The position numbers and the translations under genes were made by a program. From positions 69,918-102,613 of the forward strand of contig CAIOTT010000056.1 in assembly GCA_903861305.1 (NCBI GenBank): DNA of 32,696 nt, written 5' to 3'. Below are positions 3,896 to 32,598 of the stretch, one piece after another; position 1 is the first letter of the stretch, and every line of letters begins with the position of its first letter. This stretch comes from Candidatus Omnitrophota bacterium (GTDB taxonomy: Bacteria; Omnitrophota; Gorgyraeia; Zapsychrales; Fredricksoniimonadaceae). The notes beneath the pieces were generated by a model. That model was given only the letters and a program-made list of their open reading frames with translations. It was not told the DNA's origin and did no database searches.

Positions 3896-3933
3896 AGGCG
3901 CAAGGATTTCTGACGTCCTTTTCAGAGGCGCCT
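3896..3933 (-). terminator. Possible stem-loop at the 3' end of the 4037-codon gene
   Basis: Inverted repeat AGGCGC (3896-3901)/GCGCCT (3928-3933) with inner AAGGA (3902-3906)/TCCTT (3916-3920), overlapping the stop codon. The following minus-strand sequence is AT-rich but has no clean U-tract. Confidence 0.3.
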
Positions 3934-15900: not shown

Positions 15901-16045
15901 CAGGTTCCGGCAGCAAAGCCACCCCCTGGGCATAGGCGCGCAGGTCCGACATTAAAAATGCCGGTATCAGCACAGCCGCCAGGACCCTGTGGATCATTTG
16001 CTTTACGCGCAATCCCATCCCCTGTTTTGAAAAGACCACGTCCAC
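3932..16045 (-). CDS. Giant secreted or surface repeat protein (~4037 aa) with N-terminal module, many ~190-aa repeats and a C-terminal module
   Basis: Uninterrupted ORF. Signal-like N-terminus MGLRVKQMIHRVLAAVLIPAFLMSDLRAYAQG. N-module with WVNLSPYEKDRIV and LRQVYNSLILAAWYKKKL, shared with the 26236-32598 ORF. Repeats marked by FxxQLxRMxFxG, DRYARxLFLIELL and IFDGHDIYxI. The ORF opens at GTG; the ATG at 16018 is an alternative start. Confidence 0.9.
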   Translation of the reverse strand: MDVVFSKQGMGLRVKQMIHRVLAAVLIPAFLMSDLRAYAQGVALLPEPGARIALSPVFAPPLLKGIKVFRDDPFRFDFILDKGDPSAADAQVKAVATRLIKYFLASLTVPENELWVNLSPYEKDRIVPDAFGRTEMGRDLLAQDYLLKQLTASLMYPEDGLGKKFWEEVYRQARTKFGTTDIPVDTFNKVWIMPAKAVVYEKPRATDGLPPESAVGYVVEARLKVMLESDYRSMEKNGALSALPLEPSPRQVGDGRGEDLPKDIIREIIIPVLEKEVNEGKNFAPLRQVYNSLILAAWYKKKLLGAMPGSPLGFYVDHNKVPGINIDDPKEAEAIWGRYVEAFKKGAYNFIREEYDPATRETIPRKYFAGGMQMKIAPETVTAIDASQLALQQPLEVHVEAESVSANGEAVGVKVPRGLTIAPEVDGHIDSFDALLIKFSTYKKRDQDQRKAMALQLRRMKMDGADIFTEQTALFIAGKKGLQDRLLALMKLLDLKRDGQRLFTANHAVQLVRYAAIDQQSLLPAKAQSLAQEQMISGKWLFKASDIVQFMQWGLDDDPAILKYFRQHLDGRTKFSTIISFLVWMRKKTNNKARWGSEQQERIVRGMTRIDVAGVHELRKLLNGPEAFDAHVDAQVREDRALLEKLTASDVSAESEDIFQRVAYSFSLDIRQQSAAWLKEQFIKVFREYAEATDDPNMIKDLNRILGADGACRRFMMFRALAAYRRGGKRLLTGKEALYVVDRVSLEELGTIMPKIDWLSQKVDHDGFPLFNAFKIKVMLLRNIGYLRQVVDFWMAQEEEGWMIADGEDVYFSISIGQWSAEKGELFKKLWSTLRSTGLPVRRILNSIVFAGDMRSKLLLRTVNKTGGLPLDALKLKADLVSGTMVNKKSGVETGLQVDVQDVKFLFNELGILSDELKQYIDDSVVEDKALLKEVEAGKRQEDPIVRRLFLSFSLDVRNRMQGWLFKEFLPEYMRLSQEGDGLKARFDRYCGKYRWARANSGMDNFMRNWAIIYQYKIPHVYRQELPSPVRQIRDRRQFFVNAGLDEEEIERRLLKKWTYKDLVYAKKYGRERSLDKKGVGGFSEVTLYHIIPAPPINPSRTGDELWTGRGVLVPVHLNILGHGLDLEAESWGEALQKFGVSFADVRETLERALADDSVTVWLNGERVELEEIFDQSLDYDGANELEIRSDAAEASLAAITIPEGLTIDGKPGDHVVRDFLQQLAGIETTGAFYDQLQRLRYQGQALDSKRAEKISRTKDPYARVLSLIEFLGYTDRQGVPLFDLSRSLVMASTLPAAHRTQVSGQVAWFVKQEVLDDQQFFALLSCRKLHQASRLIDELLAEGWEPSPRDGARMLAYTTKLDFLGKDPWEEIKIRLKHKDTHVSIPDGLTIERGRDGQFVDVRGFLKDLEGSSREAVPGQLSRMKFQGQDPDKKEFEKIAREPDWYARALFYIELLGYENAGGRPLFNTHEAAVLARSLHWFAREQALGRIHWLQEQQVFDGHDIYAIVHHQLFVNISSMISLLRQDGPPFLALDASILIRYARLHGPADKERLKDLRRELQKKDRSGMVIPPWIAITPEKGGGAVDPRGFLNDLKKTDDPETFARQLPRINFKGASLDPTDAQRLARGKDRYARVLFLIELLGYLNKKGEPLFDLSRALVLTNVMEEANRQRMSGNAAWFLEQRVLDEEQFFVLLASRKLNQARNTIDELLAEGWEPSSSDGLKLMAYATKLGAFGKDPWREIKDRLEHEDTDVDLPEGLTVDPGPDGLPVDVGMFLKDLEGIKTDAVPGQLSRMKFHGQDLDKDELEKIAQEPDWHARILFLIELLRYENAAGQLLFSIHEAAVLARTLRWFARDQALGRINWLLEQQIFDGHDIYSILQQQLFLKIELIMDRLKALGQVRFELDATILIRYARLTGTVDADRIQDLRGALERQETIKEMASLEKQKAAEKKRVLEAHKALQKKKALEKQKELQAIQKQKVLEKQKALEENEAPLRGILARIPPGLAPVNISPKDGIPQEFLAILKAASGDEEVFARQFARITFAGKRVADERNAVALVKPAARFARTLFLVELLMRKNDGGQPLFGLQAAVVLAGKLSVTKKKDYHWQINLLLQQGIFDGHDIYRILAEGVFEEVQWLVNKLTVDKEKVYVWKLAELDSKVLLTYAVRPELLLTEMARAIDAALWARKKDALVHRNEIKDPSGRLTPERADADAAEASVVGITIPAGLTIDPENGRGMEDARDFLQRLGQAGRESFFEGQLPRMRFQGEVVWDPQAAGRLAVKKDRYARVLVLMELLNYRNNEGEPLFDLSRARVLANSLERSNRMQLPGQVNWFLGQTVLDDRQFYTLLARSWLERARALIDDLSREGYRLSRVDGIRLMAYMSNQGAFGNDPWEWIKEKLKSNEMSTSFPQGLAVDAGDDGKPVDVGEYLKGLKEVQEGVLLKELRRIKFRGQALDHNAWAKITREPDRYARVLFVIALLTYQDENGQLLFTLDQIMSLAGSPGLNVREQALWRINWLLKQGIFDSDDIYYIIKNTIFLKIELLMAGLSQAVPEVRGPDSKMLIKHAMMPGRIDAERIKRIRTELEAIEAFVTGIPRWISVGPAAGNEEVAVADFLRDLKETDDEEVFTRQLARLMSQGRPIGPVAAKEIARSGDRYAQALFVVELLTYVNVQGLPLFDPEQAVTIAGSSGPRGRSQVRSRLQWLMEQDIFDGSDISYILKNRLVVKIRFMIEQLMQSGREAPVLDGKILLKYAVMWVPKDGAWLNNLRAELEKKEVPVKFAPEGVSITPEAGSGDVDVPGFMKQLQKIDDKDEFARQLQRISFHGAGVKQKAAEEISREDDRYARAVFLIELWAYRDKAGRPLFSFSQALTLARRYGANFRRWAPARTGWLAAQGLFDGNDIYRIFRGRLYKRIRSLVDALKNGGQPWVDVEGKVLIKYAADRKLTDRECLQRVRKELLAQKDPVAELPEWVSVEPQADGEVGDVRAFWQSLKKIKDEGAFAGQLLRISLQGIPLRLDIAKEIAQKPDRYERALSLVELSTFKDDQGGPLLDYYQVVTLATFLGTKTRAGVVANVPWLKEQGIVDADDIFNIFVESLLGKIKGYIQKLRKEGWRPPFDGKVLIKYARKPYGGAGKGIYINAIKKELEERKASPGARRVDRSAGKMTPAEGRGKRPGDQLTRTLVVRSVQKAVGAYPFPAIVAGAAPVIISPDIGAPADFLKELAGTSGDEQAFARQLARMEFGGKRVVEARGVKKVLMSPGRYARVVFLAELLTYKDKQGRPLFDLDDAVLLAGKSYMSKKRSYRSQMVALRQLGIFDGHDISRIVAGNVFEEVQWLLNKLTKNKDEDRDKNKGKDEEKEEVVYVWKLTELNGKILTEYATRSDLRLDDMVVRIDAELWKNKREDLVRRGLITDPPGPVALDRFNTDAAEASVATVTVPEGLTIDGNSGDDLVRVYLKNFEKTSRGEPFRVQLSRLRFNGDKVWEEPAAGRLAKKKDGYARVLFFMELLNYKNKEGRPLFDIPRAATLARLLGRYRRGKVAGQVSWFLGQNDIDATKFFNLVQLGTIEQVMALIDSLKTKKRKLSPYTYKQLMQYRKFFSSTVRNASKMTAVTLTNRDIVLSLGQKLTIAPGEAGRSTDVMDFLKTLVSDSWDKDVFSRQLLRMRWDGEKMLEESEANAIAKKDDRYERAMSLLDFLMYRKNSGEAIFTPHRAAVLAISFGNTFRKNMPGYVEWFLGQQIFDSADFYNLLLGNGRIERAQVLVRQLELEGYKLSVADSQVLMKYARRSGLVEKERFNNAKQYLDKKVQAVITASREKKTDRRKKVVEPLVRPSPVKFSAQAVPAGLKAVHIDPDSDFPQIDILRQQGIFDTHDISRVIEANVFEKVQSLIKELMAKDAWELKELDGKILVQYAIQSGKSPDEVFAQVAMVLWNKKREALVRNGKIKDPGKVATSAGMDLDHAAVPGGIDLGPGMQAVESRDAGQGAVFQFVPDALHKLDGADGIRPVIIGMEPLKDISEFLGLLPVSAGK
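4140..12455 (-). repeat. Tandem array of 14 copies (last one shortened) of a ~185-190 aa protein repeat, ~555-565 nt basic period
   Basis: The IFDxxDIY-equivalent motif recurs near 4425, 4805, 5370, 6065, 6770, 7335, 7890, 8455, 9010, 9675, 10425, 10985, 11545 and 12095, each with the same flanking motifs. Boundaries approximate. Confidence 0.9.
10060..10225 (-). repeat. Low-complexity K/E/Q-rich predicted coiled-coil linker inside the repeat array
   Basis: Translates as LEKQKAAEKKRVLEAHKALQKKKALEKQKELQAIQKQKVLEKQKALEENEAP. The DNA shows imperfect tandem repetition of ctttttgcttctcaag-type units. Confidence 0.85.
14400..14810 (-). repeat. Divergent outlying copy of the ~190-aa repeat
   Basis: GLTIAPEVDGHIDSF...ALQLRRMKMDGADIFTEQTALFIAGKKGLQDRLLALMKLLDLKRDGQRLFTANHAVQLVRYAA...GKWLFKASDIVQFM aligns by eye with GLTIDPxxDG...QLxRMxFxG...IAxxxDRYARxLFLIELL...LF...WLxxxIFDxxDI. 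Confidence 0.7.
14925..15960 (-). other. Conserved N-terminal module, copy 1 (in the 4037-aa protein)
   Basis: Blocks shared with copy 2: WVNLSPYEKDRIV, TEMGRDLLAQDYLLKQLTASLMYPED, DTFNKVWIMPAKAVVYEK, NFAPLRQVYNSLILAAWYKKKL, ETIPRKYFAGG. Confidence 0.9.
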
Positions 16046-18779: not shown

Positions 18780-18807
18780 ATCATAACAACCCGGAACAAA
18801 AAATCAA
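18780..18807 (-). promoter_or_regulatory. Candidate sigma70-like promoter upstream of ppk2
   Basis: Minus strand TTGATT-(16 nt)-TATGAT in the 92-bp gap between menE and ppk2. The -35 hexamer overlaps the menE stop codon. Confidence 0.4.
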
Positions 18808-20222
18808 GCGATGCGTTCCAGGCCTTCGCCGGAAACCAGAACACCAGCCCAGCGCGGACGGTCCACCTTGAGCGGCTCAGGCCCTTCGGCCTGGGGCCAG
18901 CGGAAGAAATCGGCCGGGACCTTGAATTTAGGAAGGGATCGGCACAGATGCGCGGCAAGCAAAGCCCGCGAGACCTCGGCCCCCCGCATACATCGGATGA
19001 GCGCTACAGGGACGCTGCCGAACTCTTCATCGGGCTTCCCCGCGACGAGCGCGGCAGCCACACCCGGGACTTTCAGCAGCCAGGCTTCGACCTCCTCGGG
19101 CTGGATATTCTCCCCGCCTCTGAAGAACATGTTGTCCTTGCGGCCTTTGACCCGAAGCCGGCCGTCCGCATCCAGCTCACCGGTGTCGCCGGTGGCGAAC
19201 CACCCGTCCGCGTCGAAAGGCTTTTCCATGCCCGAGGCGCACGCATACCCCTGGAATAAAACCGCCCCTTTGACCATGATCTCACCGTCGTCTGCCAGCT
19301 TCAGCTCACGGTACGGCAATACGCGCGCGCAGGCAGCAACGGCATCAGCGGCCCCAAGCCGGGATGAGGTGGCGACCTGCGACGCTGTTTCCGTCAAGCC
19401 GTAGGAAATATGGATCGACAACCCCGCGGCCACCGCTTTCTCTAGAAGACGCACAGGGATGGGCGCTCCGCCCAGAAGGATGGCTTTCAACGCGCGCGCC
19501 GCCGCAACACCGCCGGGACCCTCGAGCAGGCGGGCCAGCTGGGTCGGCACCAAAGACACGTGCGTGACGCCGTCCCTCACAAGGACCGCGGCAGGGTCCT
19601 GTTCATCGTGGCCCAGGACAACAGCCGCCCCGGCTGAAAAACAGCGCCAGAGGATGCCGATCCCTCCGACATGAAATAATGGCAGTGACAAAAGCCATCG
19701 GTCCCGGGGGCCAACTGCAATGGCGTCCGCGGCGCCAACGGCGTTATAATGAAAATTGCCGCAGCTCAGCACCGCGGCCTTCGGCATCCCCTGGCTGCCA
19801 GATGTAAATACAACAGCCGCCGCCTGATCAGCCGCGAACCCGACCGCTTCAGCCGCATCAGGGCCCGTCAACGGCATGGCTGCAACGGATGCCGCAAGAT
19901 CACTGTCATCGACAAACGAGGCGCAGTCCAGTTGGGACGCCAAAGCCTTCGCGGCAGGCACAGGATAGCGGGGATTAAAAAGAACGCTGACACATCCTGC
20001 CCGCCAGAGAGAAAAAAGAGCCGCGATATGATCAAGGCTGTTACGGGCAAAGAGCCCCACCCGGCTTCCCGCCGCCGGGCCATCCTGCGTGATCCGCCGC
20101 ACGGCGGCGTTGATGCGCCGGTCCAGTTCCAGGTAAGATATTTCATTGCCGCGGTCACGGACCGCGCAGGCCTGCGGCGTGAGACGGGCATGCACAGAGA
20201 TGGGACAGCCTATTTCAGGCAT
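18804..20222 (-). CDS. menE: o-succinylbenzoate-CoA ligase
   Basis: AMP-binding motif AAVVFTSGSQGMPKAAVLS; HISYGLTETAS; GWFATGDTGELDADGRLRVKGRKDNMFFRGGENIQPEEVE. Start taken as the ATG at 20222 (MPEIGCPISVHARLTPQACAVR), overlapping the menC stop; the ORF extends to 20252. Confidence 0.9.
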   Translation of the reverse strand: MPEIGCPISVHARLTPQACAVRDRGNEISYLELDRRINAAVRRITQDGPAAGSRVGLFARNSLDHIAALFSLWRAGCVSVLFNPRYPVPAAKALASQLDCASFVDDSDLAASVAAMPLTGPDAAEAVGFAADQAAAVVFTSGSQGMPKAAVLSCGNFHYNAVGAADAIAVGPRDRWLLSLPLFHVGGIGILWRCFSAGAAVVLGHDEQDPAAVLVRDGVTHVSLVPTQLARLLEGPGGVAAARALKAILLGGAPIPVRLLEKAVAAGLSIHISYGLTETASQVATSSRLGAADAVAACARVLPYRELKLADDGEIMVKGAVLFQGYACASGMEKPFDADGWFATGDTGELDADGRLRVKGRKDNMFFRGGENIQPEEVEAWLLKVPGVAAALVAGKPDEEFGSVPVALIRCMRGAEVSRALLAAHLCRSLPKFKVPADFFRWPQAEGPEPLKVDRPRWAGVLVSGEGLERIA

Positions 20223-21351
20223 CTTTGACGGGGCGGATGAGTTTGAAATCAAGGTCGCTCTTTTCCAAAGCGTACGGCCCGGGGATGATCATCCTCCCGG
20301 CCGGTTCAAAGGGCTCGTCGAGAAGGTTCTGGGAATACCACTTGCCTGTATCAAGCCCCGCGGGTTCCTCAGGGGTCACCGCGCAGGCCAGATGGGCCAG
20401 CGCCAGCAAACCTACGGAAGATTCAAAGGTGGAACTGATGGCCGCGCGGATCCCGCGGTCATGGGCCCAGCGGACCCATCCCATGGTCTTTTCCCAGCCG
20501 CCCAACAGCATGGGTTTGAGGACCAGCATCTTGAGGTTGTCCAGCCCCTCTAGCTGGTCCTCAGTGCATTCACGCAAGGTCTCATCGAGGGCAAACGGGA
20601 ATTTGGTGATACGGCTGAACTCGTCCAAAGCATCGGGATCGTCAATGGGCTCTTCCAGGTACTCAATGGCACTCGGCTCAAACTCCCTGACAAAATTGAA
20701 CGCCTGGCCGTAGCGCCAGCGGCGATTGGCATCAAGATGAAGCCGGCCATCCGGCGGAAGCACCCCCAGCACCCAGGACACCTTCTGATGGTCCGCCTTG
20801 ATATCAGGGTCCCCGACCTTGAGCTTGAAGGAGCGGCACCCGTCATGGACAGCCGCTAACACCTCTTTCTGAAGGAGCTTCTGGCTCGTTTGCGACAGGA
20901 GCTCCGAACGCGGCACCTGCCCCGTCGACGCCGGGTTAATCAGGCGGTCAAGGCTGACATCACGGCGGCGCGCCAGAAGGTCCAGCACCGCGGTCTCGAA
21001 CGCGCAACGCACGGACGGGAACAACTTCCATGTCCGCAGCCACGCCTCAAAACGCCACGTCAGCGACTCGACATCATCAGGAATGGAATTGCCCCTGACC
21101 TTGTCCTTAAGGAAAAACAGCTGTTTCTGGACATCCTGCAGACGTTCCGCGCTGAAACCGATGAGCGGCGCCACCTCACCCACACCCGTGGTGTGGTCAT
21201 CGCCCTTGATAAAGATCAAGAATCCCGCACGCTCCCGCTGAAACTCTCCGGCAAGCTCAAGCGCCTGGGCCAGCGGCAGGCTGTAACGGAATATCTCAAG
21301 GTCAATGATCTTCACAGGCACCAGCCGATCGAAAAAAGGGCAGCATAACAC
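20215..21351 (-). CDS. menC: o-succinylbenzoate synthase (enolase superfamily)
   Basis: FKLKVGDPDIKADHQKVSWV; LHLDANRRWRYGQAFNFVREFEPSAIEYLEEPIDDP; FALDETLRE; LVLKPMLLGGWEKTMGWVRWA. True start may be internal (~21318, GTG; VPVKIIDLEIFRYSLPL). Confidence 0.92.
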   Translation of the reverse strand: MLCCPFFDRLVPVKIIDLEIFRYSLPLAQALELAGEFQRERAGFLIFIKGDDHTTGVGEVAPLIGFSAERLQDVQKQLFFLKDKVRGNSIPDDVESLTWRFEAWLRTWKLFPSVRCAFETAVLDLLARRRDVSLDRLINPASTGQVPRSELLSQTSQKLLQKEVLAAVHDGCRSFKLKVGDPDIKADHQKVSWVLGVLPPDGRLHLDANRRWRYGQAFNFVREFEPSAIEYLEEPIDDPDALDEFSRITKFPFALDETLRECTEDQLEGLDNLKMLVLKPMLLGGWEKTMGWVRWAHDRGIRAAISSTFESSVGLLALAHLACAVTPEEPAGLDTGKWYSQNLLDEPFEPAGRMIIPGPYALEKSDLDFKLIRPVKDA

Positions 21352-22184
21352 AAAAGGACCCGGCCGGTGGCGGCCAAAGCCTCGTTAAGCGCCGGTCCTT
21401 CACTGAGAGTAAGAACGGTCCTGATCACGGGGGCCGCGACCAGAAGCGTCAGCGCCGCCAGCAGGGTCCAGGGATGCGCGTGCGGGCCTGTAACAAAACA
21501 AAAAGGGACGAGCGCCGCCCCCAGCAGGCACAGGCAATATTCCCATCGGGCAAAAACCCGGCCGAAACGGACCGCGAGCGTGCGCTTGCCGGCCTTGCGG
21601 TCGGCGTCAATATCGCGCAGGTTGTTGACGCAAAGGATGGCGGTCGACAGAAGCCCCGGCCCGACTCCCGCCGCGACAGCCGCCGGATCAAGGCGAAGGG
21701 CCTGCACATAATACGTCCCGGCAACAGCCACAGGCCCAAAAAATACCAGGACAAAAATATCCCCCAGCCCGAGATACCCGAGGGCATGGCGTCCCGCCGT
21801 ATAAAGGATCCCTGCCGCGATGGAAAAGACCCCGATGGCCACCACGGGCCAGCCGCCGCGCCAAACCAGATAAAGCGACACGAGCGCCGCCAGCGCAAAG
21901 GCCAGGATAAAACTGTTGCGCACTGTCGCAGGCGCGATAAGACCCGCCTGCGTCACACGCACGGGGCCGATGCGCTCCGGCGTGTCAGCGCCTTTGCGGA
22001 AATCAAAATAATCATTGGCCAGGTTGGTGCCGATCTGGATAAGGAGCGCTCCCGCCAATGCGCAGCCAGCGGCAAGCGCATGCCCCGCGCCGTCATGCCA
22101 GGCCATGGCCGCGCCGACAACAACAGGCGCCGCGGCCGCGGGAAGGGTTCTGGGACGGATGGCCATCAACCATGGATTTGACAT
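21312..22184 (-). CDS. menA: 1,4-dihydroxy-2-naphthoate prenyltransferase (UbiA family)
   Basis: MSNPWLMAIRPRTLPAAAAPVVVGAAMAW; IGTNLANDYFDFRKGADTPERIGPVRVTQAGLI; LCVNNLRDIDADRKAGKRTLAVRFG; multiple hydrophobic helices. Confidence 0.95.
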   Translation of the reverse strand: MSNPWLMAIRPRTLPAAAAPVVVGAAMAWHDGAGHALAAGCALAGALLIQIGTNLANDYFDFRKGADTPERIGPVRVTQAGLIAPATVRNSFILAFALAALVSLYLVWRGGWPVVAIGVFSIAAGILYTAGRHALGYLGLGDIFVLVFFGPVAVAGTYYVQALRLDPAAVAAGVGPGLLSTAILCVNNLRDIDADRKAGKRTLAVRFGRVFARWEYCLCLLGAALVPFCFVTGPHAHPWTLLAALTLLVAAPVIRTVLTLSEGPALNEALAATGRVLLCYAALFSIGWCL

Positions 22185-22211
22185 AAAAGAAAACCTTACC
22201 TTTAGCGATCG

Positions 22212-23036
22212 TCAGGGACGCCGGGGGAATTTTGAAAAATCAGGTTTGCGTTTTTGAACGAACGCATCCCTTCCCTCCTGGGCCTCGGGAGACATGTAAA
22301 AAAGCATGGTGGCATTGCCCGCGAGTTCCTGCAGGCCGGCCTGCCCGTCGCAATCAGCATTGAGCGCGGCTTTAAGGCAGCGAATGGCCATCGGTGAGTT
22401 GGCCAGGATCTCGCGGCACCAGCTGACCGTCTCTTCTTCAAGGCGCTCAAGCGGTACCACCACATTCACAAGCCCCATCGCCAGCGCCTGAGCGGCATTG
22501 TACTTGCGGCAAAGGAACCATATTTCACGCGCCTTCTTCTGCCCGACGATGCGCGCCATATAGCTGGCGCCGTAACCCCCGTCAAAAGATCCCACACGCG
22601 GGCCGGTCTGGCCGAACACCGCATTTTCCGCGGCGATGGAAATGTCGCACAGAAGATGCAGGACATGCCCTCCGCCAATAGCGTACCCGGCGATCATCGC
22701 GATCACGGGCTTGGGACAGGTGCGTATCTGGCGCTGGAGGTCGAGCACATTGAGGCGGTTGACTCCCTTGGCATCCTTGTAGCCCGCCTCCCCCCTGACC
22801 TTCTGGTCGCCGCCGGAACAGAACGCCCGGCCGCCCGTGCCTGTAAGGATAACGACCCCGATCTTCGCGTCGTCGCGCGCATCATACAACGCCTGCGCCA
22901 TTTCCGTCACCGTCAGCGGACGGAACGCGTTGTGGACCTCAGGGCGGTTGATGGTGATCTTCGCCATACCGCCTGATTTTTCATACGTGATATCCTTGAA
23001 CGTCGCGGCTTTTTTCCATTTCAGCGCGGGGATCAT
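22212..23036 (-). CDS. menB: 1,4-dihydroxy-2-naphthoyl-CoA synthase (crotonase fold)
   Basis: [121 protein letters not shown]. Confidence 0.97.
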
Positions 23037-24808
23037 GCTTGTCCTTCCGGTAATGTTTTATCGATGAACACTTTCAGATCTTCCTGCCACGCCTGGTGCA
23101 GACGGAGATTTTCATCGCGGCGTGTCACGACCTCAATGAGCGCGGGGCCTTTGCGGCGGACCGCTTTGGCGTAGGCACGGATAAATGCCGCAGGGGTCTT
23201 AGGCTGCTCATACGGCACCCCGAACATGGCGGCCGCGTGTTCGAAATGATACCCGTGCGGTATCCCGAAAAGACGGTCAACGTCATCCCCAAGCCGCGCC
23301 ACGGGCAGGAAAGAAAATATCCCTCCGCCGTCATTATTCATCACAACGACCGTGACGGGCAGGCGATTGGCCGCGAGGATGGCCAGTGAATTGATATCAT
23401 GCAACGCCGCGAGGTCGCCGATAACAAGCGTGACCGGCCTTGCCAGGCCGCGCGCGAACCCCCCCGCGCTGGCCATGATCCCGTCAATGCCGCTGGCGCC
23501 CCTGTTGGCGCCTATGGCGATATCCCCCGGCCTGACGGCCCCGTACATATCCATGTCGCGCACAGGCATGCTGTTGCTCAGAAAAAGTCCGTGCCCCGCC
23601 GGGAGCTGCCGGGAGACCAGGCGAGCGACCCCGGGTTCGCTCAACGGCCCGCGCGCGGCTTTCTCTATCCTGGCCGCGATCTTCTGCGACAATTTCTGCA
23701 TGGCAACCAGCGCCGGATCTTCCCGCCGCGCCTTGACCTTTGGCGTCACGGCACAACAGAATGCCTCAACCCCCGCCTCGATGCGCAATGTCACCTGGTG
23801 GGCCGGATCATTGCGCAAAGGGTGGTTAAGGACCATCACGTAATGTTCCAGCCTGCGGCTTTCCAGAAAAAGGTTGAGGCGCTTTGAGGTCATCCGCCCG
23901 CCGACCTGCAGGATCCCGTCGATGTCCAGGGACGCGGCAAAACGCGCGCTCAGCAGCATCTGGTCAAAATGATGGATCACGGGCCCTTGCGCCGGCGTCA
24001 ACCGCAATGTGGAGGTGACATCCGGGAACAGGGGCCACTGCAATCTTTCCGCCAGCTCCAGGACAGCGTCCCTCTCCCCCGGCGAACGCAGTTTCCCGAC
24101 AACGATAATACCGCGCTTGACCGCGTCAAGCGCACGGACAACCTCTGCCGTCGCCGCCGCGTTAAGGGTCCCATCCGGAGCGTGGTAGGCCGTATAGGGT
24201 GCCGTGCCTTCCCGGTGCCTGGCAATATCGGCCAGATAATCATCCGGATCAGCGGCACCGGCCACAGGCGCCAGCGGTTCGCGGAACATGCAATTCAGAT
24301 GCACGGGCCCGCCCGGTGAACGCCTCGCCCGGTAAACCGCCTGGTCCACCGTGGTGAGGACCATGGCGGGCGGGATCTCGATCGTCGGGCACGGCAGGTC
24401 ATACTGGAAGCGCACGTATTCAGTGAAAAGGCCAGGCTGTTCGATCGCCTGGTCCGCGCCCGTTTTGCGCAATTCGGGCGGACGGTCCGCCGTGAGCACA
24501 ATGAGAGGAAGTTTTTTTCTGGAACATTCAATGATCCCGGGAAGGAAATTGGCTGCGGCTGTCCCTGACGTGCAGACAATGACAGCCGGCTTTCCCGCCG
24601 CCGCCGCATAGCCCGTCGCAAAGAAAGCCGCGGCCCGTTCATCAAAATGGACAAGCGCTTTGGCGCGCGGTTCACCGGCAATGGCCAGCGCCAGGGGCGC
24701 GGAACGCGATCCGGGGCAAATGATAAAGGTATCAATGCCGTTACGGATCAACTCATCCACAATGAGCCCGGCCCAGATAAAATTGATGTTGGGATCAGCT
24801 GCTGTCAT
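23033..24808 (-). CDS. menD: 2-succinyl-5-enolpyruvyl-6-hydroxy-3-cyclohexene-1-carboxylate synthase (ThDP-dependent)
   Basis: [101 protein letters not shown]. 4-bp overlap with menB. Confidence 0.97.
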
Positions 24809-26232
24809 GAAAGCGCCTTGAGGATATTGCTGATCTTAAGCTCGACCTCCGCCCATTCACGGTGCGGATCTGACCCCGCCACAATCCCCGCGCCCGCGAA
24901 AACAGAAAGTTCCCTCCCGCGCACCAGCCCTGAACGGATGGCCACCGCGAATTCAGCCTCGTCGCGGCCGATCCAGCCGACAGGCCCGGCATACCAGCCC
25001 CGGTGAAACGCTTCGGCCGCAGCTATACGTTCCAGCGCCGCAGGGGTCGGTGTCCCCGCCACGGCGGGGGTCGGGTGCAAACGCTCCAGGATGTTCCCGT
25101 CCGTAGTATCAGCCGCCAGCACGCACGTGAAACGGGATACCAGGTGCTGGCTGTCACGGAATTTTTCCACCACCGGCAGCTCGTCAACAGTGCTCTGCTG
25201 GCGCAGCGGCAACAAACTTTCACGGATCGCGTCAATCACATGGTGGTGCTCAAGCCGCTCCTTGGGATCGTTCAATAATTCCGCCGCGAACACCCTGTCC
25301 TCGGCGTCGGATGCGCCGCGCGGCCGCGTCCCGGCAACAGCCTCGGTCCAAAGCCGCGTGCCGCTGCGTTTGAACAACCTCTCAAAAGAAGCCCCAAAGA
25401 ACGCTTCGCCCGCGGACGGCTGGAACAGGAAATGGTAACATCCCGGCGTCACCTTCTGGTAAGCGCGCAGGATCTCCAGCGGGTGGCACGCCGCGGATAA
25501 GGACAGGTCTGTCCTCCTGGCCAGGACGAGTTTTGTGATCACGCCCTCGCCAATGGCCTCCAGGGTCCTTTGCACCGCATCGGCCCAGGCCGCACGTTGG
25601 GGAAGATCGCGTTCACGGGCCACGGTCACGGACGGCGCGGCCGCCGGCACGAAGTCCTGCCTGATCCCGTCAAGCGCGCGCAAGGCGGCGCGGCGGTCCT
25701 CCTTCCCCGGACCATCATTGAAAAAATTAACGGCCAACGACATCCGTTGGCCATGACGATTGATCTCGAGGCGCGCCAGGATGAACCACACGGCCGGAAA
25801 GCCCTGCCATTCCCTGCCCCGGCAAACCTGCGCGAAGGAACTTCCCCCGAAATACCGCGCGCCGGGGGCTCCTGCCGCAAGCACCGGCCGTAAGGCCGCG
25901 TCACACTCCTTGAAATCCTGCGCCGCCATACGGATCTCGTGCGCCATGCCCAGCCCGCCGGTTTCCTGCAGGCCTGAACGGTCCTGCCAGTACACAAGCG
26001 GGTGCATATCCTGCGTTTCAAGAAATGATTTTATATCAAGGGGATCGAGGGCAACTTCAACGCGCTGCCAGCCATCTGCGGCGGAAGAAATGATGCTCTC
26101 TCGCAAAACGGCCAAAGCCTGGGGCAGTGTGAACGTTACCGGTGATGTCAGTGATGGTGCCATGGGTACAGTCCTTAAGGACGCGTTAAAAAAACCGGGC
26201 ACCATCTTATCAAATCCGGCGCAAAATGGCAA
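24805..26232 (-). CDS. menF: Isochorismate synthase
   Basis: Chorismate-binding domain KLVLARRTDLSL; TPGCYHFLFQPSAGEAFFGASFERLF; TEAVAGTRPRGASDAED; HHHVIDAIRESL; HPTPAVAGTP; WYAGPVGWIGRDEAEFAVAIRSGLV. Internal ATG at 26163 with AAGGA upstream is a plausible true start; 4-bp overlap with menD. Confidence 0.95.
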   Translation of the reverse strand: MPFCAGFDKMVPGFFNASLRTVPMAPSLTSPVTFTLPQALAVLRESIISSAADGWQRVEVALDPLDIKSFLETQDMHPLVYWQDRSGLQETGGLGMAHEIRMAAQDFKECDAALRPVLAAGAPGARYFGGSSFAQVCRGREWQGFPAVWFILARLEINRHGQRMSLAVNFFNDGPGKEDRRAALRALDGIRQDFVPAAAPSVTVARERDLPQRAAWADAVQRTLEAIGEGVITKLVLARRTDLSLSAACHPLEILRAYQKVTPGCYHFLFQPSAGEAFFGASFERLFKRSGTRLWTEAVAGTRPRGASDAEDRVFAAELLNDPKERLEHHHVIDAIRESLLPLRQQSTVDELPVVEKFRDSQHLVSRFTCVLAADTTDGNILERLHPTPAVAGTPTPAALERIAAAEAFHRGWYAGPVGWIGRDEAEFAVAIRSGLVRGRELSVFAGAGIVAGSDPHREWAEVELKISNILKALS

Positions 26233-26235
26233 AGG

Positions 26236-26430
26236 CTAGGGTTGCGTTATGGCTCCCTGCTCCAATAGAGCCGGGATGCTGACGGGAACGATCTTCCTGA
26301 TCTGCGGCTCCAGCCCGCTGATCCTGATCCCCTCCAACGGTTGGCGGGACAACGGCAAGGGAACGCCGTGGCCGTCGCGAAGGATCTGGAGACCCATCAG
26401 CGCGGCGTCGAGGTTGATGCCGCCGGTTTT
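26236..26430 (-). other. Shared C-terminal module, copy 2 (end of the 2120-aa protein)
   Basis: GGINLDAALMGLQILRDGHGVPLPLSRQPLEGIRISGLEPQIRKIVPVSIPALLEQG compared with GGIDLGPGMQAVESRDAGQGAVFQFVPDALHKLDGADGIRPVIIGMEPLKDISEFLGLLP at 3945-4130. Confidence 0.6.
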
Positions 26431-29400
26431 TTCGATCTCTTGGCTGCTATCTCCCTGCAACAACCCGGCAGGACTGCGCGCCTCTCCAAGGACAGCGGCA
26501 TGCGCATCATTGTAAACATCCACGACCAGCCCTACGGCAACACCCGTCTGTTCCTTGATCCAGGCCTCCATCTCAGACTTAACCTTGACCGCCAAAGAAT
26601 AATTCTCAAACGGCAAATTCGGGGCTTTGAACGGCGTCCCGACTATCCCGCGCTCCCGGTCTACCGGACCGGCAAAGGCGATGCCGATCTTGCGCAGCAA
26701 AGTCACGTCAGCCCCTGCCAGGGATCTCTTGACTTGATCAACTATGCCCCGTGTCACTCCGTCGGAAGATTCGGGATACGCCTCACGCCATTTGACCTCA
26801 ACAGGCTCATCCGTCATGATCCGCCCATCGAGAGAGATTTGCCCTGCCCCGATCTTAGTGCCGCCGATACTAACACCCACCGCAATATACGGCTTATCTC
26901 CCGCAGCTTCCCTGTCCTTGATACGCGTCATTTCGTCAGCCGTCAAGCGCGCCGCAATGATCTCCCTTTCCCAGCTGATACGCGAACGGTGGACACCATT
27001 GACGATCTCCTCAACGCGACTGCCGGCCACCCCGGCGCGTATCAACGCCTCACGCACCCCGTGACGGATACCATGCAACAAAATGTCCTTCTCGGGATCA
27101 CGCGCGCGGGCAAAATTCTCCCCGACACCTGAGACCATAACAAAATTCTTCACCCACGGAGCATCTTGATATACAACAAACATCGCGGCCAAAGCCGAAC
27201 CGATCTTCCCCCCCAAACGATCGACAAAATCCTCAACGGCGTCCTCTTTCTTGTCCACCAGCCCGGACCCTGCACGCAACACCATGTCAACCACCAGGGC
27301 TCGCTGCCGCTTGTTCTCTTCATTCGTATCGGAACTCAATATATTCAAATAAGCCGTTATCTCATCCTCCTGCAAATCCGTATCCATATTTTGAAAAAGC
27401 TTGGACCTGAATGAACTGTCATCCCACAACTGCCGGGCGATCCCGACACCATTAAAAATACTTTCAAACGTATGATCTCCTGGCTCCAGGACAGGCTTCC
27501 GCCCCAGCATTTCTTTCCCGGTAAAAACCCATTGATCGGTTGAGGCACGAAAAACAATATTATGTCCCAACTCCAGCAACGCGCCGCCATCCGTTTCAAT
27601 ATTCCCGTCTTCTCCAACCACCGCACCATTATTGCCTGTGCCGAAAATAAACGCCATGCCGGCCTTGATCAACTGAACCGATGTCTTCTTGTCCGCACCA
27701 ACACGGGCCGACGATGATATCGCCGTTAATCTTTCCAGCGATCCCTTAACAAATTCCAGCGAAGCACCCGTCTGCTCGGCAATCTTATCTGGCGCAACAC
27801 CTTCACGTGACAAACGGACAACATCCTCCCGTGTCACGATCGTAAAACTGGCCGGCCCCTCGCGCGCGGCTCCGGCAGGGATCAATTCCTGAAGTTGCGA
27901 CAGCTTGTCTGTTCCCAGGCTGAAAGGATCCCTCACGGTAGCCGTGGGTTCCAGCGCCCCGGCACCCGCCATTTCCGTCCATCCCGTCGCCAGGGGGAAC
28001 TTGCGCGCGTCAGCTTCGACCACGATCTGCCGGTCCTCCATGGTCACCCATGCGCGCCAGAGACCATCCTTGTCCGGTACGGCCTGAAATGTGTCGTTGA
28101 ACGCCCCGGCTTCTCCGGTCGTGATCTTCTGCCCATCACCGATGTTCCTTCCGGCGATGATATCCTCAAGAGCACCCGTTGGAAAATTAACATGCTTCTT
28201 CAAGCTCATCAAGATCCGTACCTGCGCGGCTTGCCACCACGGATGGATACCAAAAAGATCGGGCACAGGGCTGTCGCCTTTGTTAAGCGTGCTTTCCCAG
28301 ACAGTCAATCGGTTCCCCTTGAGCGTGACCGCCATGGTAGCCGCGAGATGTCCGGGGATGATAGGGCTGTCCTTGACCTCCACACCGGCCTTCACTGTCA
28401 CACCATGGTCGTCGGATGAGATCCCCTGGATCGACCAGCCCAGCTCCGCTCCGGGATGGTAATAGTGCCCCTCCCAGGTGCTCAACCCCGGTTGGCCTTC
28501 AAGCCGATATTCTTTCCCGTCCGCGACAAATGTTTTGGACACTTCTCCGATGGGAAACCCGTAATGCATGGGCGCCGCATTGACATCCACGCCGTCAGAT
28601 CCTGTAAAATGAAAAACCCTGAAACCATCCTCCGGCGACACCTCGAGCTCGGTGCCCGCCTGTTTGTCCGCGATCTTGTAATGTGCGGCCAAAACGCCGT
28701 CCCTTGCCGCAAATGAAGCCGTGATCTCGAATTTTCCTTCCCTGTTGATCCGTGCGATATCGTCCTGTATATGCAAGGGAATAACAAGCTGCCTGGCGGG
28801 CCTTGTCCCTGTCGCCGCGGAGATCTCGTCCCCAAAGGCCTCGGCCACGGTGGCGACAAGATCGGCCAGCTGGCCCTGATTGATAAGCGGCAGCGAACCG
28901 TTCAGCAGCCCCGCAATAATATCCTGCCGCGGCATCCCCTGATTTTCGTACGTCGTGAACACCTGCCCCCAGAGATCCCGGTATCTTTCCGAGTAATAAA
29001 CCCGGAAATCCGCCAAGCCGGTCTTCCTGAGCCTGTCACGGGTGTCCGCATCAAGTTCATTGTCCAGCATATTGGCATTGACGAGTGCCCCGAGGAAGGT
29101 CACGATCTTCTCACGCATCCCTTCATCCTGAACAACGCGCGTGTAGTCGACCTTCATCCCGTCAAACGCGCTCTCCAGACGGGAGAAGATATCCTCCGCT
29201 GGATGAGACGATGTCCCAACCACCTCCTGCGGCACCATCTTTTCAAGGGCATCGATCAGGCTTTTCGCCTGTTGCGGCAGGGTAAGGAATCCTCCGTCGC
29301 GTGCGGCCGCACTGCGGGACAGAATAATATAGGGCCGGCCATCCGTGTGCTGATAAACGGCCGTCAGGATGCCCTGGCGCAGATCAGCTTTGCGTACCCG

Positions 29401-32400
29401 GCCGTTATGAAGCGTTGCCGCAAGCACTGCCGCCAACTGTTTTTCCCGCGCATTCCCCTGGCCCAGCACACGCAGCGCCAGCTGCGCGACAGGTGATGCC
29501 ATGCGCACCGGTTCGCGCCGTTCGATCCAGTTGTCGGCAGATCGCCGGGAATCCACGACCAGCTTCTTCAACCGGTCGATCACCTCATCGTTGAATGCCC
29601 CCTGGAGCATACGCCAGGACCAATTGTTCGGATCCTCCGTGCCCGGGATATTGTAACGGTCCATAAGGCCCACAACGCCATCATCCCCCGCAAGGACATC
29701 CGCGTAATGAAGGACAGCCGTATCAGAATTCGTCATGAACAGGAGCTGGTCCATCAAGAAAGCGATCTTTTCTTCCGAAACCGCCTCCGTGATCCCCGCA
29801 TCGGCTAAAACAACACCAAGCCTGTTCCTTTGTCCCTCATTTAAACTGCGGTACCAGGCCCGCGTGGTCTCATTGTCGTGCGTCCCGTTAAAAGCAACGG
29901 TATCCGTAAAATAATTCCGCGGATTGAAAATATCTTCCTTCGGCCCGACGCCTTCCGGGTTCACTGACATGAATTGCGTCAACTTCATCCCTTTGAGGCC
30001 CGTATCATTCAACAACTTTACCGTGAGCGGCGTGACCGCGCCAAGATCCTCAACGAATAAAAGGTCCGGCAAGTTCGGGTACTGTTCACGCAACGCATCG
30101 AACAGAACGCGCGGATCAATGGTAGCCTGTTCATCCCTTAACCGGTGCCCATCAGACGCCCTGATACCTTCCGGTACGACCCAGGGGTCGGCCAACCCGA
30201 TAAAATGATCGCTGCGAAGCGGGTCCCCCTCCGCCAGTTCAAGGCTGTAAATGAACCGTTTCAGAAGAAAATCAATGCCATCTTCCCGCATCCAGTTATA
30301 AACAGGGTGGCCCCAATCCTGGCCATCAGGCGCAAACGCGTCGCCGGGAACTCCTGAGTGCACAGGTAATTTCCCTGTATCCTTCTCATAAATATAAGCC
30401 GCCTGGTTGCCCCACATATCGGCACTGTTAAAGCGCGGGTAGATCGGCATGTCCGACAGGATGCGGACATGATGTTCTTTGGCGAATTGCTTGCGACGGT
30501 CCCATTGCTGTCGAAGAAGGAACTGAAAAAATTTGATGAATTCGATCTCGTCCCGATGCGCGGCTTCAAAGCTTGCGACAGCGTCGGGTTCCCTGTCCCT
30601 CAATCCCGCCGGCCAATGGGTCCAATCGCTTTCACCCTGAACTGCGCTGATGGCGCGGAACTGGGCAAATTGTTGAAGCCAGTCCATGCGCAGCTTCCTC
30701 CCGCCGATCACCACCTCACGCGCGGTATGGTCAGACTTGAATTTCTCAAATTTATCCCGTAGCGCCATGGCATTGGCATCTTGCCCCCGGCCCAACGCGG
30801 CGAGATAGTTCCCATAACCTTTACGCGCCAGCATTTCCTTATAGTGAAGTGCGCTAAAAGGAACACGTGACGCGGCAATATTCTCCGGGACGATCGCCTT
30901 ATAATCGTCTTCGCTGATCAACTTATCCCGCAGCAGCGCCTCTGGACTTAACGAATTTTCATTAAGCGCGAACAAGGAGCTCCCGTTATATGGACAACCG
31001 TTCTCGTCGGTCATATGCGGCGGCAGGTCCAGCCAGTCCCGCACACCCGCTTTCTCTAACATCAGGATGTGCTCCTCGGAAGCCGGGCCAAAGTCCCCGA
31101 TACCGGTATCCCTTCCATAAAGATATGTGGAAGGTCGCAGTGCGGCCGTCGGCATCAAGACCCCGGCACCCGGTGCCTGCGCCTCGACAGCACCCAATAC
31201 CTGCGCGTTGGTCAATGGTTTCGCACCAGGCATGAACCTGGCCGCCAAAGCCGAAAGCACACTGGCCCGTGCCTTCTTTTCGGCAGCCTCTGCCAGATCA
31301 ACAGACACCTCCGCGGCCCCATCCGGCTTCCTGGCCGCTATCCACGGCCTTGCCTCTTCTCTCGTCGCGGCCCTGAGGTTTTTCTCGGAGAATCCGGTCG
31401 CCCCACCCGACACGTACTTCTTCGGCACCGTGTCACCGGTAACGGGATCTGCCTCTTCCTTGATATAATTGTAAACACCGGCCTTGAACGAGGCCACGTA
31501 CTGTTCATAGATCTGCTGGCGGAACTTCGGGTCGTCCACCCGGATGCCGGCCGTCCTGTCGCGGTCAACGTAGATCCGGCCAAGCAGGCTTTCGCGCAGG
31601 GTCTTCTTGTACCAGACCGCGAGGATCATGGAATTGTAGATCTGGCGCAGCGACGCAAAGTTGCGGCCTGTATTCACTTCTTTCTCGATCGCAGGAATGA
31701 TGACCGCGCGCACAACATCGCTCATCACAGCACTCACAGCCTTATCACCTGCCTGGGCCCCGCCCTTTTTCCTCGTCTTCTGCAAGGCCAGATAATCCTG
31801 TTCCAGCATGACTTTCAGATGCTGTTCGATCACGAACACCTTGTTCCCTTTTTCGTACACAACGCCCTTGTCCGGGATGATCCAGACCTTGTTGAACGTA
31901 TCCAGCGGCACATCCGTCACGCCAAAACGGTACTTCGCCTGCTGGTACACTTTTTGCCAGAACTCTTTGCCCAGCTCATCCTCGGGATAGACCAGCGACG
32001 CGGTCAGCTGTTTGAGGATGTAATCCTGCGCCAGCATGTCGCGGCCCATCTCGGTCTGGCCCAACCCATCCCCGACGATGCGGTCTTTTTCATACGGCGA
32101 AAGGTTCACCCACTGCTCTTTTTCAGGAACGGTCAGCGCGGCAAGAAAATATTTTACAAGTTTTGAAGATTCCTGGCGGAAGGCATCGCTCTCAAAGGAA
32201 AGGCCGGAGTCGCCCTTATCGATGATAAAACTGAACTTCAAAGGATCGTCGCGGTTGATCGCCATGCCGCACGCGAGGGGCGGAAGATACACCGGGCTGG
32301 TGCGGACCATGGTGCCGGGGACCGGGAGGTTCAATGCCGCAATGCCCCCCTGGGCCAAAGCCCCGCCCGCCGGAAGGAGCGTGTTGACAAGAAAGACCAC

Positions 32401-32598
32401 GAGCACGGCAGCGGTCTTAACCCGGGACATGGATCTTCCGTTGAACAAATGATCTGAAACCGTCATGAAGGCTCCTGCCAATACCGGCATCCTGACAATG
32501 TCCTCCTCCTGCGTTACGGAGCGCCTACCTGTGATCCTGATAAAAATAAACCCGGATTTTTCATTAGAAAAATCCGCCCCGCAGGGGTCGCGTGGCAA
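26236..32598 (-). CDS. Giant multidomain carbohydrate-active protein: export signal + N-module + GH77 4-alpha-glucanotransferase + mutarotase-like + ROK kinase halves + C-module
   Basis: Single ORF. Signal-like MSRVKTAAVLVVFLVNTLLPAGGALAQGG. MalQ motifs RSDHFIG, FVEDLGAVTP, GTHDNETTRAW. ROK motifs VSIGGTKIGAG and ELGHNIVF. The ORF opens at TTG; likelier starts are the ATGs at 32466 (AGGAG 5 nt upstream), 32490 or 32430. Confidence 0.92.
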   Translation of the reverse strand: MPRDPCGADFSNEKSGFIFIRITGRRSVTQEEDIVRMPVLAGAFMTVSDHLFNGRSMSRVKTAAVLVVFLVNTLLPAGGALAQGGIAALNLPVPGTMVRTSPVYLPPLACGMAINRDDPLKFSFIIDKGDSGLSFESDAFRQESSKLVKYFLAALTVPEKEQWVNLSPYEKDRIVGDGLGQTEMGRDMLAQDYILKQLTASLVYPEDELGKEFWQKVYQQAKYRFGVTDVPLDTFNKVWIIPDKGVVYEKGNKVFVIEQHLKVMLEQDYLALQKTRKKGGAQAGDKAVSAVMSDVVRAVIIPAIEKEVNTGRNFASLRQIYNSMILAVWYKKTLRESLLGRIYVDRDRTAGIRVDDPKFRQQIYEQYVASFKAGVYNYIKEEADPVTGDTVPKKYVSGGATGFSEKNLRAATREEARPWIAARKPDGAAEVSVDLAEAAEKKARASVLSALAARFMPGAKPLTNAQVLGAVEAQAPGAGVLMPTAALRPSTYLYGRDTGIGDFGPASEEHILMLEKAGVRDWLDLPPHMTDENGCPYNGSSLFALNENSLSPEALLRDKLISEDDYKAIVPENIAASRVPFSALHYKEMLARKGYGNYLAALGRGQDANAMALRDKFEKFKSDHTAREVVIGGRKLRMDWLQQFAQFRAISAVQGESDWTHWPAGLRDREPDAVASFEAAHRDEIEFIKFFQFLLRQQWDRRKQFAKEHHVRILSDMPIYPRFNSADMWGNQAAYIYEKDTGKLPVHSGVPGDAFAPDGQDWGHPVYNWMREDGIDFLLKRFIYSLELAEGDPLRSDHFIGLADPWVVPEGIRASDGHRLRDEQATIDPRVLFDALREQYPNLPDLLFVEDLGAVTPLTVKLLNDTGLKGMKLTQFMSVNPEGVGPKEDIFNPRNYFTDTVAFNGTHDNETTRAWYRSLNEGQRNRLGVVLADAGITEAVSEEKIAFLMDQLLFMTNSDTAVLHYADVLAGDDGVVGLMDRYNIPGTEDPNNWSWRMLQGAFNDEVIDRLKKLVVDSRRSADNWIERREPVRMASPVAQLALRVLGQGNAREKQLAAVLAATLHNGRVRKADLRQGILTAVYQHTDGRPYIILSRSAAARDGGFLTLPQQAKSLIDALEKMVPQEVVGTSSHPAEDIFSRLESAFDGMKVDYTRVVQDEGMREKIVTFLGALVNANMLDNELDADTRDRLRKTGLADFRVYYSERYRDLWGQVFTTYENQGMPRQDIIAGLLNGSLPLINQGQLADLVATVAEAFGDEISAATGTRPARQLVIPLHIQDDIARINREGKFEITASFAARDGVLAAHYKIADKQAGTELEVSPEDGFRVFHFTGSDGVDVNAAPMHYGFPIGEVSKTFVADGKEYRLEGQPGLSTWEGHYYHPGAELGWSIQGISSDDHGVTVKAGVEVKDSPIIPGHLAATMAVTLKGNRLTVWESTLNKGDSPVPDLFGIHPWWQAAQVRILMSLKKHVNFPTGALEDIIAGRNIGDGQKITTGEAGAFNDTFQAVPDKDGLWRAWVTMEDRQIVVEADARKFPLATGWTEMAGAGALEPTATVRDPFSLGTDKLSQLQELIPAGAAREGPASFTIVTREDVVRLSREGVAPDKIAEQTGASLEFVKGSLERLTAISSSARVGADKKTSVQLIKAGMAFIFGTGNNGAVVGEDGNIETDGGALLELGHNIVFRASTDQWVFTGKEMLGRKPVLEPGDHTFESIFNGVGIARQLWDDSSFRSKLFQNMDTDLQEDEITAYLNILSSDTNEENKRQRALVVDMVLRAGSGLVDKKEDAVEDFVDRLGGKIGSALAAMFVVYQDAPWVKNFVMVSGVGENFARARDPEKDILLHGIRHGVREALIRAGVAGSRVEEIVNGVHRSRISWEREIIAARLTADEMTRIKDREAAGDKPYIAVGVSIGGTKIGAGQISLDGRIMTDEPVEVKWREAYPESSDGVTRGIVDQVKRSLAGADVTLLRKIGIAFAGPVDRERGIVGTPFKAPNLPFENYSLAVKVKSEMEAWIKEQTGVAVGLVVDVYNDAHAAVLGEARSPAGLLQGDSSQEIEKTGGINLDAALMGLQILRDGHGVPLPLSRQPLEGIRISGLEPQIRKIVPVSIPALLEQGAITQP
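26450..26910 (-). other. ROK kinase N-terminal half (placed after the C-terminal half)
   Basis: YIAVGVSIGGTKIGAGQISLDG...KIGIAFAGPVDRERGIVGTPFKAPNLPFENYSLAVKV...VVDVYNDAHAAVLGE. Confidence 0.8.
26960..27700 (-). other. ROK kinase C-terminal half (placed before the N-terminal half)
   Basis: FIFGTGNNGAVVGEDGNIETDGGALLELGHNIVF...HTFESIFNGVGIARQL...GGKIGSALAAMFVVYQDAPWVKNFVMVSGVGENFARA. Confidence 0.75.
27950..28640 (-). other. Aldose 1-epimerase (galactose mutarotase)-like domain
   Basis: YRLEGQPGLSTWEGHYYHPGAELGWSIQGI...GHLAATMAVTLKGNRLTVWESTLNKGDSPVPDLFGIHPWW resembles the mutarotase core with its conserved xHPxx strand. Confidence 0.55.
29560..31180 (-). other. GH77 4-alpha-glucanotransferase (MalQ-like) domain
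   Basis: GIGDFGPASEEHILMLEKAG; RILSDMPIYPRFNSADMW; LRSDHFIGLADPWVVP (nucleophile Asp); LLFVEDLGAVTP (acid/base Glu); FNGTHDNETTRAWY (third Asp); PGTEDPNNWSWRM. Confidence 0.92.
31390..32350 (-). other. Conserved N-terminal module, copy 2 (in the 2120-aa protein)
   Basis: WVNLSPYEKDRIVGDGLGQTEMGRDMLAQDYILKQLTASLVYPEDELGKEFW; DTFNKVWIIPDKGVVYEK; NFASLRQIYNSMILAVWYKKTL; VTGDTVPKKYVSGG. Confidence 0.9.
32553..32576. repeat. Perfect 10-bp stem hairpin
   Basis: CGGATTTTTC-ATTA-GAAAAATCCG. Confidence 0.9.

Follow-up and report, generated by a model that had tools for sequence, protein, structure and literature searches.

A probable natural circular permutation of a ROK-family domain within a giant protein of Omnitrophota

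Near the end of a 2,120-amino-acid open reading frame from an Omnitrophota bacterium lies a ROK-family domain whose two lobes occur in swapped order, C-lobe first. We consider it very probable that this region is a naturally circularly permuted single domain of the ASKHA fold, a judgment that does not extend to its activity. The window (the entire 32,696-nucleotide stretch of DNA analyzed here) is part of contig C56 of a 1.74-Mb genome that consists of 74 contigs and is estimated to be 68% complete. The original prediction, that ROK C-lobe motifs precede the N-lobe motifs, was confirmed: all of the motifs that it quoted are present, in the order given, within a single open frame on the minus strand, namely FIFGTGNNGAVV, LLELGHNIVF, FESIFNGVGIARQL and VKNFVMVSGVGENF, followed by YIAVGVSIGGTKIGAG, GIAFAGPVDRERGIVGTPFKAPNLPF and VYNDAHAAVLGE.

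The reading frame occupies positions 26236..32598 (minus strand, as are all features described for it). It is listed with a TTG start, and a later start ahead of a hydrophobic VKTAAVLVVFLVNTLLPAGGALAQ stretch is possible. Its first portion is a module of approximately 330 residues (31400..32400) that begins, as judged by eye, like a signal peptide and that has no match in Pfam or NCBIfam. This is followed by a 4-alpha-glucanotransferase (GH77) domain (29599..31116; PF02446, E 2.3e-84) and by a stretch weakly resembling aldose 1-epimerase (28009..28566; PF01263, E 0.0021, below cut-off). The ROK C-lobe then spans 26941..27666, as delimited by a lobe profile and by alignment with canonical C-lobes. 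It includes the GTG phosphate-2 motif (27634..27642), the ELGH motif that supplies the sugar-binding Glu and His (27562..27573), the Glu of FES..NG that corresponds to the third sugar-binding acid of ROK proteins (27463..27465), and RSRISWERE (26962..26988), a C-lobe tail motif that is a signature of the subfamily. A linker of about 14 residues, predicted to be mostly helical, leads from the old C-terminus to the old N-terminus (26899..26940). The ROK N-lobe comes second in the chain (26482..26898; PF00480 and lobe profile), with the phosphate-1 motif SIGGTK, in which Asp is replaced by Ser (26854..26871), and the NDA motif containing the catalytic Asp (26503..26511). The frame closes with a C-terminal module of about 70 residues, GGINLD...PVSIPALL (26239..26457), which is common to other giant proteins of this genome.

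Standard family profiles recognized only part of this domain. The Pfam ROK profile (PF00480) matched the N-lobe alone, at profile positions 2-97 of 294 with an E-value of 0.0058, below its curated cut-off; the match ends short of where a C-lobe would start, and the C-lobe is invisible to Pfam. Similarly, of the 318 positions in the NCBIfam ROK glucokinase profile, 1-120 aligned (E 4.5e-8), a match that falls well short of the cut-off. When separate lobe profiles were made from canonical relatives, the C-lobe was detected at 1.4e-36 and the N-lobe at 6.3e-36, in C-then-N order. Since each lobe is highly significant with its own profile, this arrangement is not a product of chance. The N-lobe, with its GGTK and NDA motifs, and the C-lobe, with GTG and ExGH, both group with canonical members, so evolutionary membership in the ROK family is not in doubt, even though the linear N-lobe to C-lobe order of the family is lacking. 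The two lobes are complementary and their breakpoints coincide with the normal lobe boundary, as had been proposed.

To model the permuted sequence with AlphaFold2, we used an alignment composed of the two permuted proteins (the second is described below) and separate halves of canonical relatives. Two independent incomplete domains in such a model would, according to the original prediction, have spoken against permutation; the fold obtained was instead a single domain modeled with confidence (mean pLDDT 88.8, pTM 0.86), comparable to that of a canonical relative modeled as a control (G043; pLDDT 86.3, pTM 0.86). The secondary-structure elements of the permuted model match those of the control, with their order rotated at the lobe boundary. 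A single ROK/ASKHA domain is thus what the model predicts, and the packing of the lobes in it may derive partly from ROK folds learned by the network, the alignment rows being mostly unpaired half-domains. In Foldseek, which follows chain order, the canonical model aligned with the ROK glucokinase 3vgk over 401 columns (TMt 0.75), whereas the permuted model aligned over 127 columns covering one lobe only (TMt 0.30), and none of the entries listed for it reached a TM of 0.4. A full-length match for the canonical protein against a one-lobe match for the permuted protein is what circular permutation predicts. A canonical profile searched against the PDB likewise matched ROK glucokinases (best E 2.4e-16).

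A second permuted protein was found among 392 genomes of the phylum. Candidatus Omnitrophota HKST-UBA13 (G273; contig JAGQKV010000007.1), which belongs to the same taxonomic order as the window's genome but to another family, aligns with the ROK region of the window in a single alignment of 394 residues (query residues 8-402) at 44-46% identity. Because this one stretch crosses both lobes, the HKST-UBA13 protein has the same swapped order. Its permuted domain resides in a different giant protein (a 4,710-residue frame) of a separate assembly; PF00480 scores above cut-off there, unlike in the window, and no other Pfam match, including GH77, was detected in that protein. Given that a second, distantly related genome carries the same swap, the permutation is a real, inherited rearrangement.

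Among 48 non-redundant two-lobed reading frames, tallied with lobe profiles run on the loci collected, 45 have N-C order, one has a C(tail)-N-C arrangement, and the remaining two are C-N. The closest unpermuted relative (G043) has its N-lobe first and its C-lobe second, the two matches lying 15-24 bases apart, and is 47-49% identical to the window in the N-lobe and 35-36% in the C-lobe; G032 has the normal order as well. The canonical homologs are whole domains without missing halves, which, together with the one-domain model and the same order in a second assembly, supports the proposed reading of a circularly permuted ROK domain. A scan of genome contigs with the permuted lobe pair recovered HKST-UBA13 only, and searches of the order, class and phylum, covering about 500 distinct Omnitrophota genomes, revealed no third swapped case; viral contigs and plasmids gave no match to the permuted domain. 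Three weak matches that were C-lobe only or appeared to reach the junction (G234, G045 and G384) were rejected, as they turned out to be canonical.

Trees built from the N-lobe and from the C-lobe each placed the window nearest to HKST-UBA13 and then to G043, and a combined tree united all three in a clade with support of 100/100. Within this clade, a sister relationship of the two permuted proteins to the exclusion of G043 received support of 73/29, with AU p-values of 0.40 and 0.21 for the alternatives. With such values, either one or two permutation events are possible; the linkers of the two proteins, which are alike in length and can be aligned (AARLTADEMTRIKDREAAGDKPYIAVG versus AARFTEEERSQL-DKTDATPQDALAVG), favor one.

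The residues of the active site were compared between these proteins. In ROK kinases the roles of the NDA, ExGH, third Glu and GTG residues are known. In both permuted proteins NDA retains its Asn and Asp and ExGH its Glu and His, and the GTG loop and the third Glu are present as well. Ser occupies the phosphate-1 Asp position in these two proteins, as it does in almost every canonical subfamily member; this replacement may alter the binding of ATP or Mg. Neither the permuted domain of the window nor its HKST-UBA13 homolog contains a single cysteine, and the Zn-binding HxxxCxCGxxGC motif, which is not universal among ROK proteins, is accordingly missing. The absence of Zn-binding cysteines had been pointed out alongside the swap; the absence is borne out, but it has no tie to the permutation, as unpermuted subfamily members are without the motif too. 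Both the loss of the Zn site and the phosphate-1 Ser, being common to the unpermuted subfamily, predate the permutation or are independent of it. As judged from their residues, the canonical relatives closest to the permuted proteins appear to have lost more of the active site than these have: the third Glu and the sugar-binding His are missing from G043 (L010, G043:C57), and G032 (L040, G032:C7) has NNT in place of NDA and has lost the catalytic Asp.

The permuted domain plausibly arose by duplication followed by loss of the outer halves. A ROK domain would have been tandemly duplicated inside a giant gene, after which the first N-lobe and the last C-lobe would have been lost, leaving the old C-terminal tail joined to the old N-terminus through a short helical linker. 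One relative (G321; L091, G321:C133, reverse strand) carries the ROK tail twice, before the N-lobe and again after the C-lobe; this repeat of 43 residues scores 134, against a best score of 59 in 500 shuffles, and is likely to be a remnant of a trimmed tandem duplication. Such a doubled tail is what trimming one copy of a tandem pair leaves, making this origin plausible. Short linker segments are also repeated on either side of the ROK domain in G338, G484 and G136. The repeats flanking the ROK domain at L059, L105 and L056 (SSSPLA-NSYGAVV, MKDGEK-YPAGD and RYSAQ) are possible seams of domain shuffling in giant genes.

The N-terminal module of the 2,120-residue protein has 63 matches in the window's genome, located at the head of large reading frames; about 54 of the 63 span nearly the whole module, with identities mostly of 48-58%. 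Both giant frames of the window begin with it, the second being at 3932-16045 (minus strand). Most of 20 such frames that were fetched end in a shared GGIDL-type C-terminal module, with differing enzymes in between, and six that were scanned include among their payloads a glucan water dikinase-like protein, beta-propellers, a radical SAM enzyme with a phosphatase, and a PLP enzyme. Giant reading frames are known in Omnitrophota and have been termed poorly understood (PMC10066038). The present data suggest that this phylum has an extensive repertoire of giant proteins that has apparently gone undescribed. Adjacent to the permuted gene, the frames at 18804-26232 (minus strand) resemble by eye a menaquinone-pathway cluster (menF, menD, menB, menA, menC and menE-like).

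That the pieces were misjoined in assembly or binning is conceivable for a genome so fragmented and incomplete, but the open frame is intact where the lobes meet, and the independent HKST-UBA13 assembly, which here takes the place of read coverage, has the lobes in the same order with a comparable linker. That homolog refutes this explanation, to which we assign virtually no weight. A tandem duplication that lost its outer halves would also yield the observed order if the products were two separate, degenerate half-domains without a joint fold or function, and the remnant tail ahead of a complete domain in G321 fits such a history. As the alternative to permutation, the original prediction had offered a tandem pair of ROK domains, each deprived of the opposite half; this description likely captures the evolutionary route, but as a state of the present protein it is very unlikely, because the halves are complementary, they are modeled as one domain, and all of the sugar-contact and catalytic residues have survived in two genomes whose domains are about 45% identical. 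It is improbable, though less so, that the lobes pair between two chains as a domain-swapped dimer, an arrangement that the short linker and the lobe order would equally suit. The single-chain model is confident, however, and known ROK structures place the C-terminal helix close to the N-lobe, so that a short linker suffices within one chain.

Taking the region as a permuted single domain, we find it somewhat more probable than otherwise that it phosphorylates a sugar with ATP, the substrate perhaps being glucose from the 4-alpha-glucanotransferase domain within its own chain. Like those of other ROK kinases, its lobes would clamp around sugar and ATP, since nearly all elements of the site are present and only chain connectivity differs. 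The 4-alpha-glucanotransferase reaction can release glucose, and the most economical scheme would join glucan processing and sugar phosphorylation in one protein, with GH77 releasing glucose that the ROK domain phosphorylates. No other ROK protein and no PF02685 glucokinase were detected in the window's genome at its 68% completeness. The GH77 partnership is not conserved, as the HKST-UBA13 protein lacks any other Pfam match, and the signal-peptide-like start would place the protein outside the cytoplasm, where ATP is scarce, which, like the altered phosphate-1 residue, counts against a kinase. The latter point, together with the subfamily-wide phosphate-1 Ser and loss of the Zn site, would suit a non-kinase module for sugar binding or regulation, and ROK repressors do use the fold without catalysis. 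We regard this as rather unlikely: neither permuted protein has lost the catalytic Asp of NDA or the GTG phosphate loop, whereas canonical relatives such as G032 and G043 did lose residues of this kind.

The domain shares with ROK proteins (PF00480), including the glucokinases 3vgk of Streptomyces griseus and 2qm1 and the N-acetylmannosamine kinases, both lobes, the GGTK, NDA, GTG and ExGH motifs, the third Glu and the predicted fold; it differs in having its C-lobe first, in lacking CxCGxxGC, in its phosphate-1 Ser, and in residing within a 2,120-residue protein. With the unpermuted Omnitrophota subfamily (G043:C57, G174:C9 and G351:C88) it shares the giant reading frame, the missing Zn site, the phosphate-1 Ser and the RSxxxxERE tail, but those domains follow the normal N-to-C order. 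Of the relatives found, the HKST-UBA13 domain alone matches it in the swap, with a linker of nearly equal length. A literature search on circular permutation in ROK, ASKHA, hexokinase and glucokinase proteins, in a collection with few subscription journals, returned no report of a permuted ROK domain. In our estimation the chances are about even that we are dealing with a still active ASKHA-fold sugar kinase, the first to be found circularly permuted in nature, and that it came about through duplication and trimming in giant multidomain proteins whose N- and C-terminal modules are shared while the domains between them are shuffled.

The two-lobed ASKHA fold, shared by hexokinase, actin and Hsp70, is very widespread. 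A permutation conserved in nature would demonstrate that this fold does not depend on lobe order and would suggest how permutations can come about. It would also be a warning that standard family profiles detect just half of such enzymes. If an active permuted kinase has indeed come from shuffled giant genes, these proteins would offer a natural setting in which to study permutation and the shuffling of domains.
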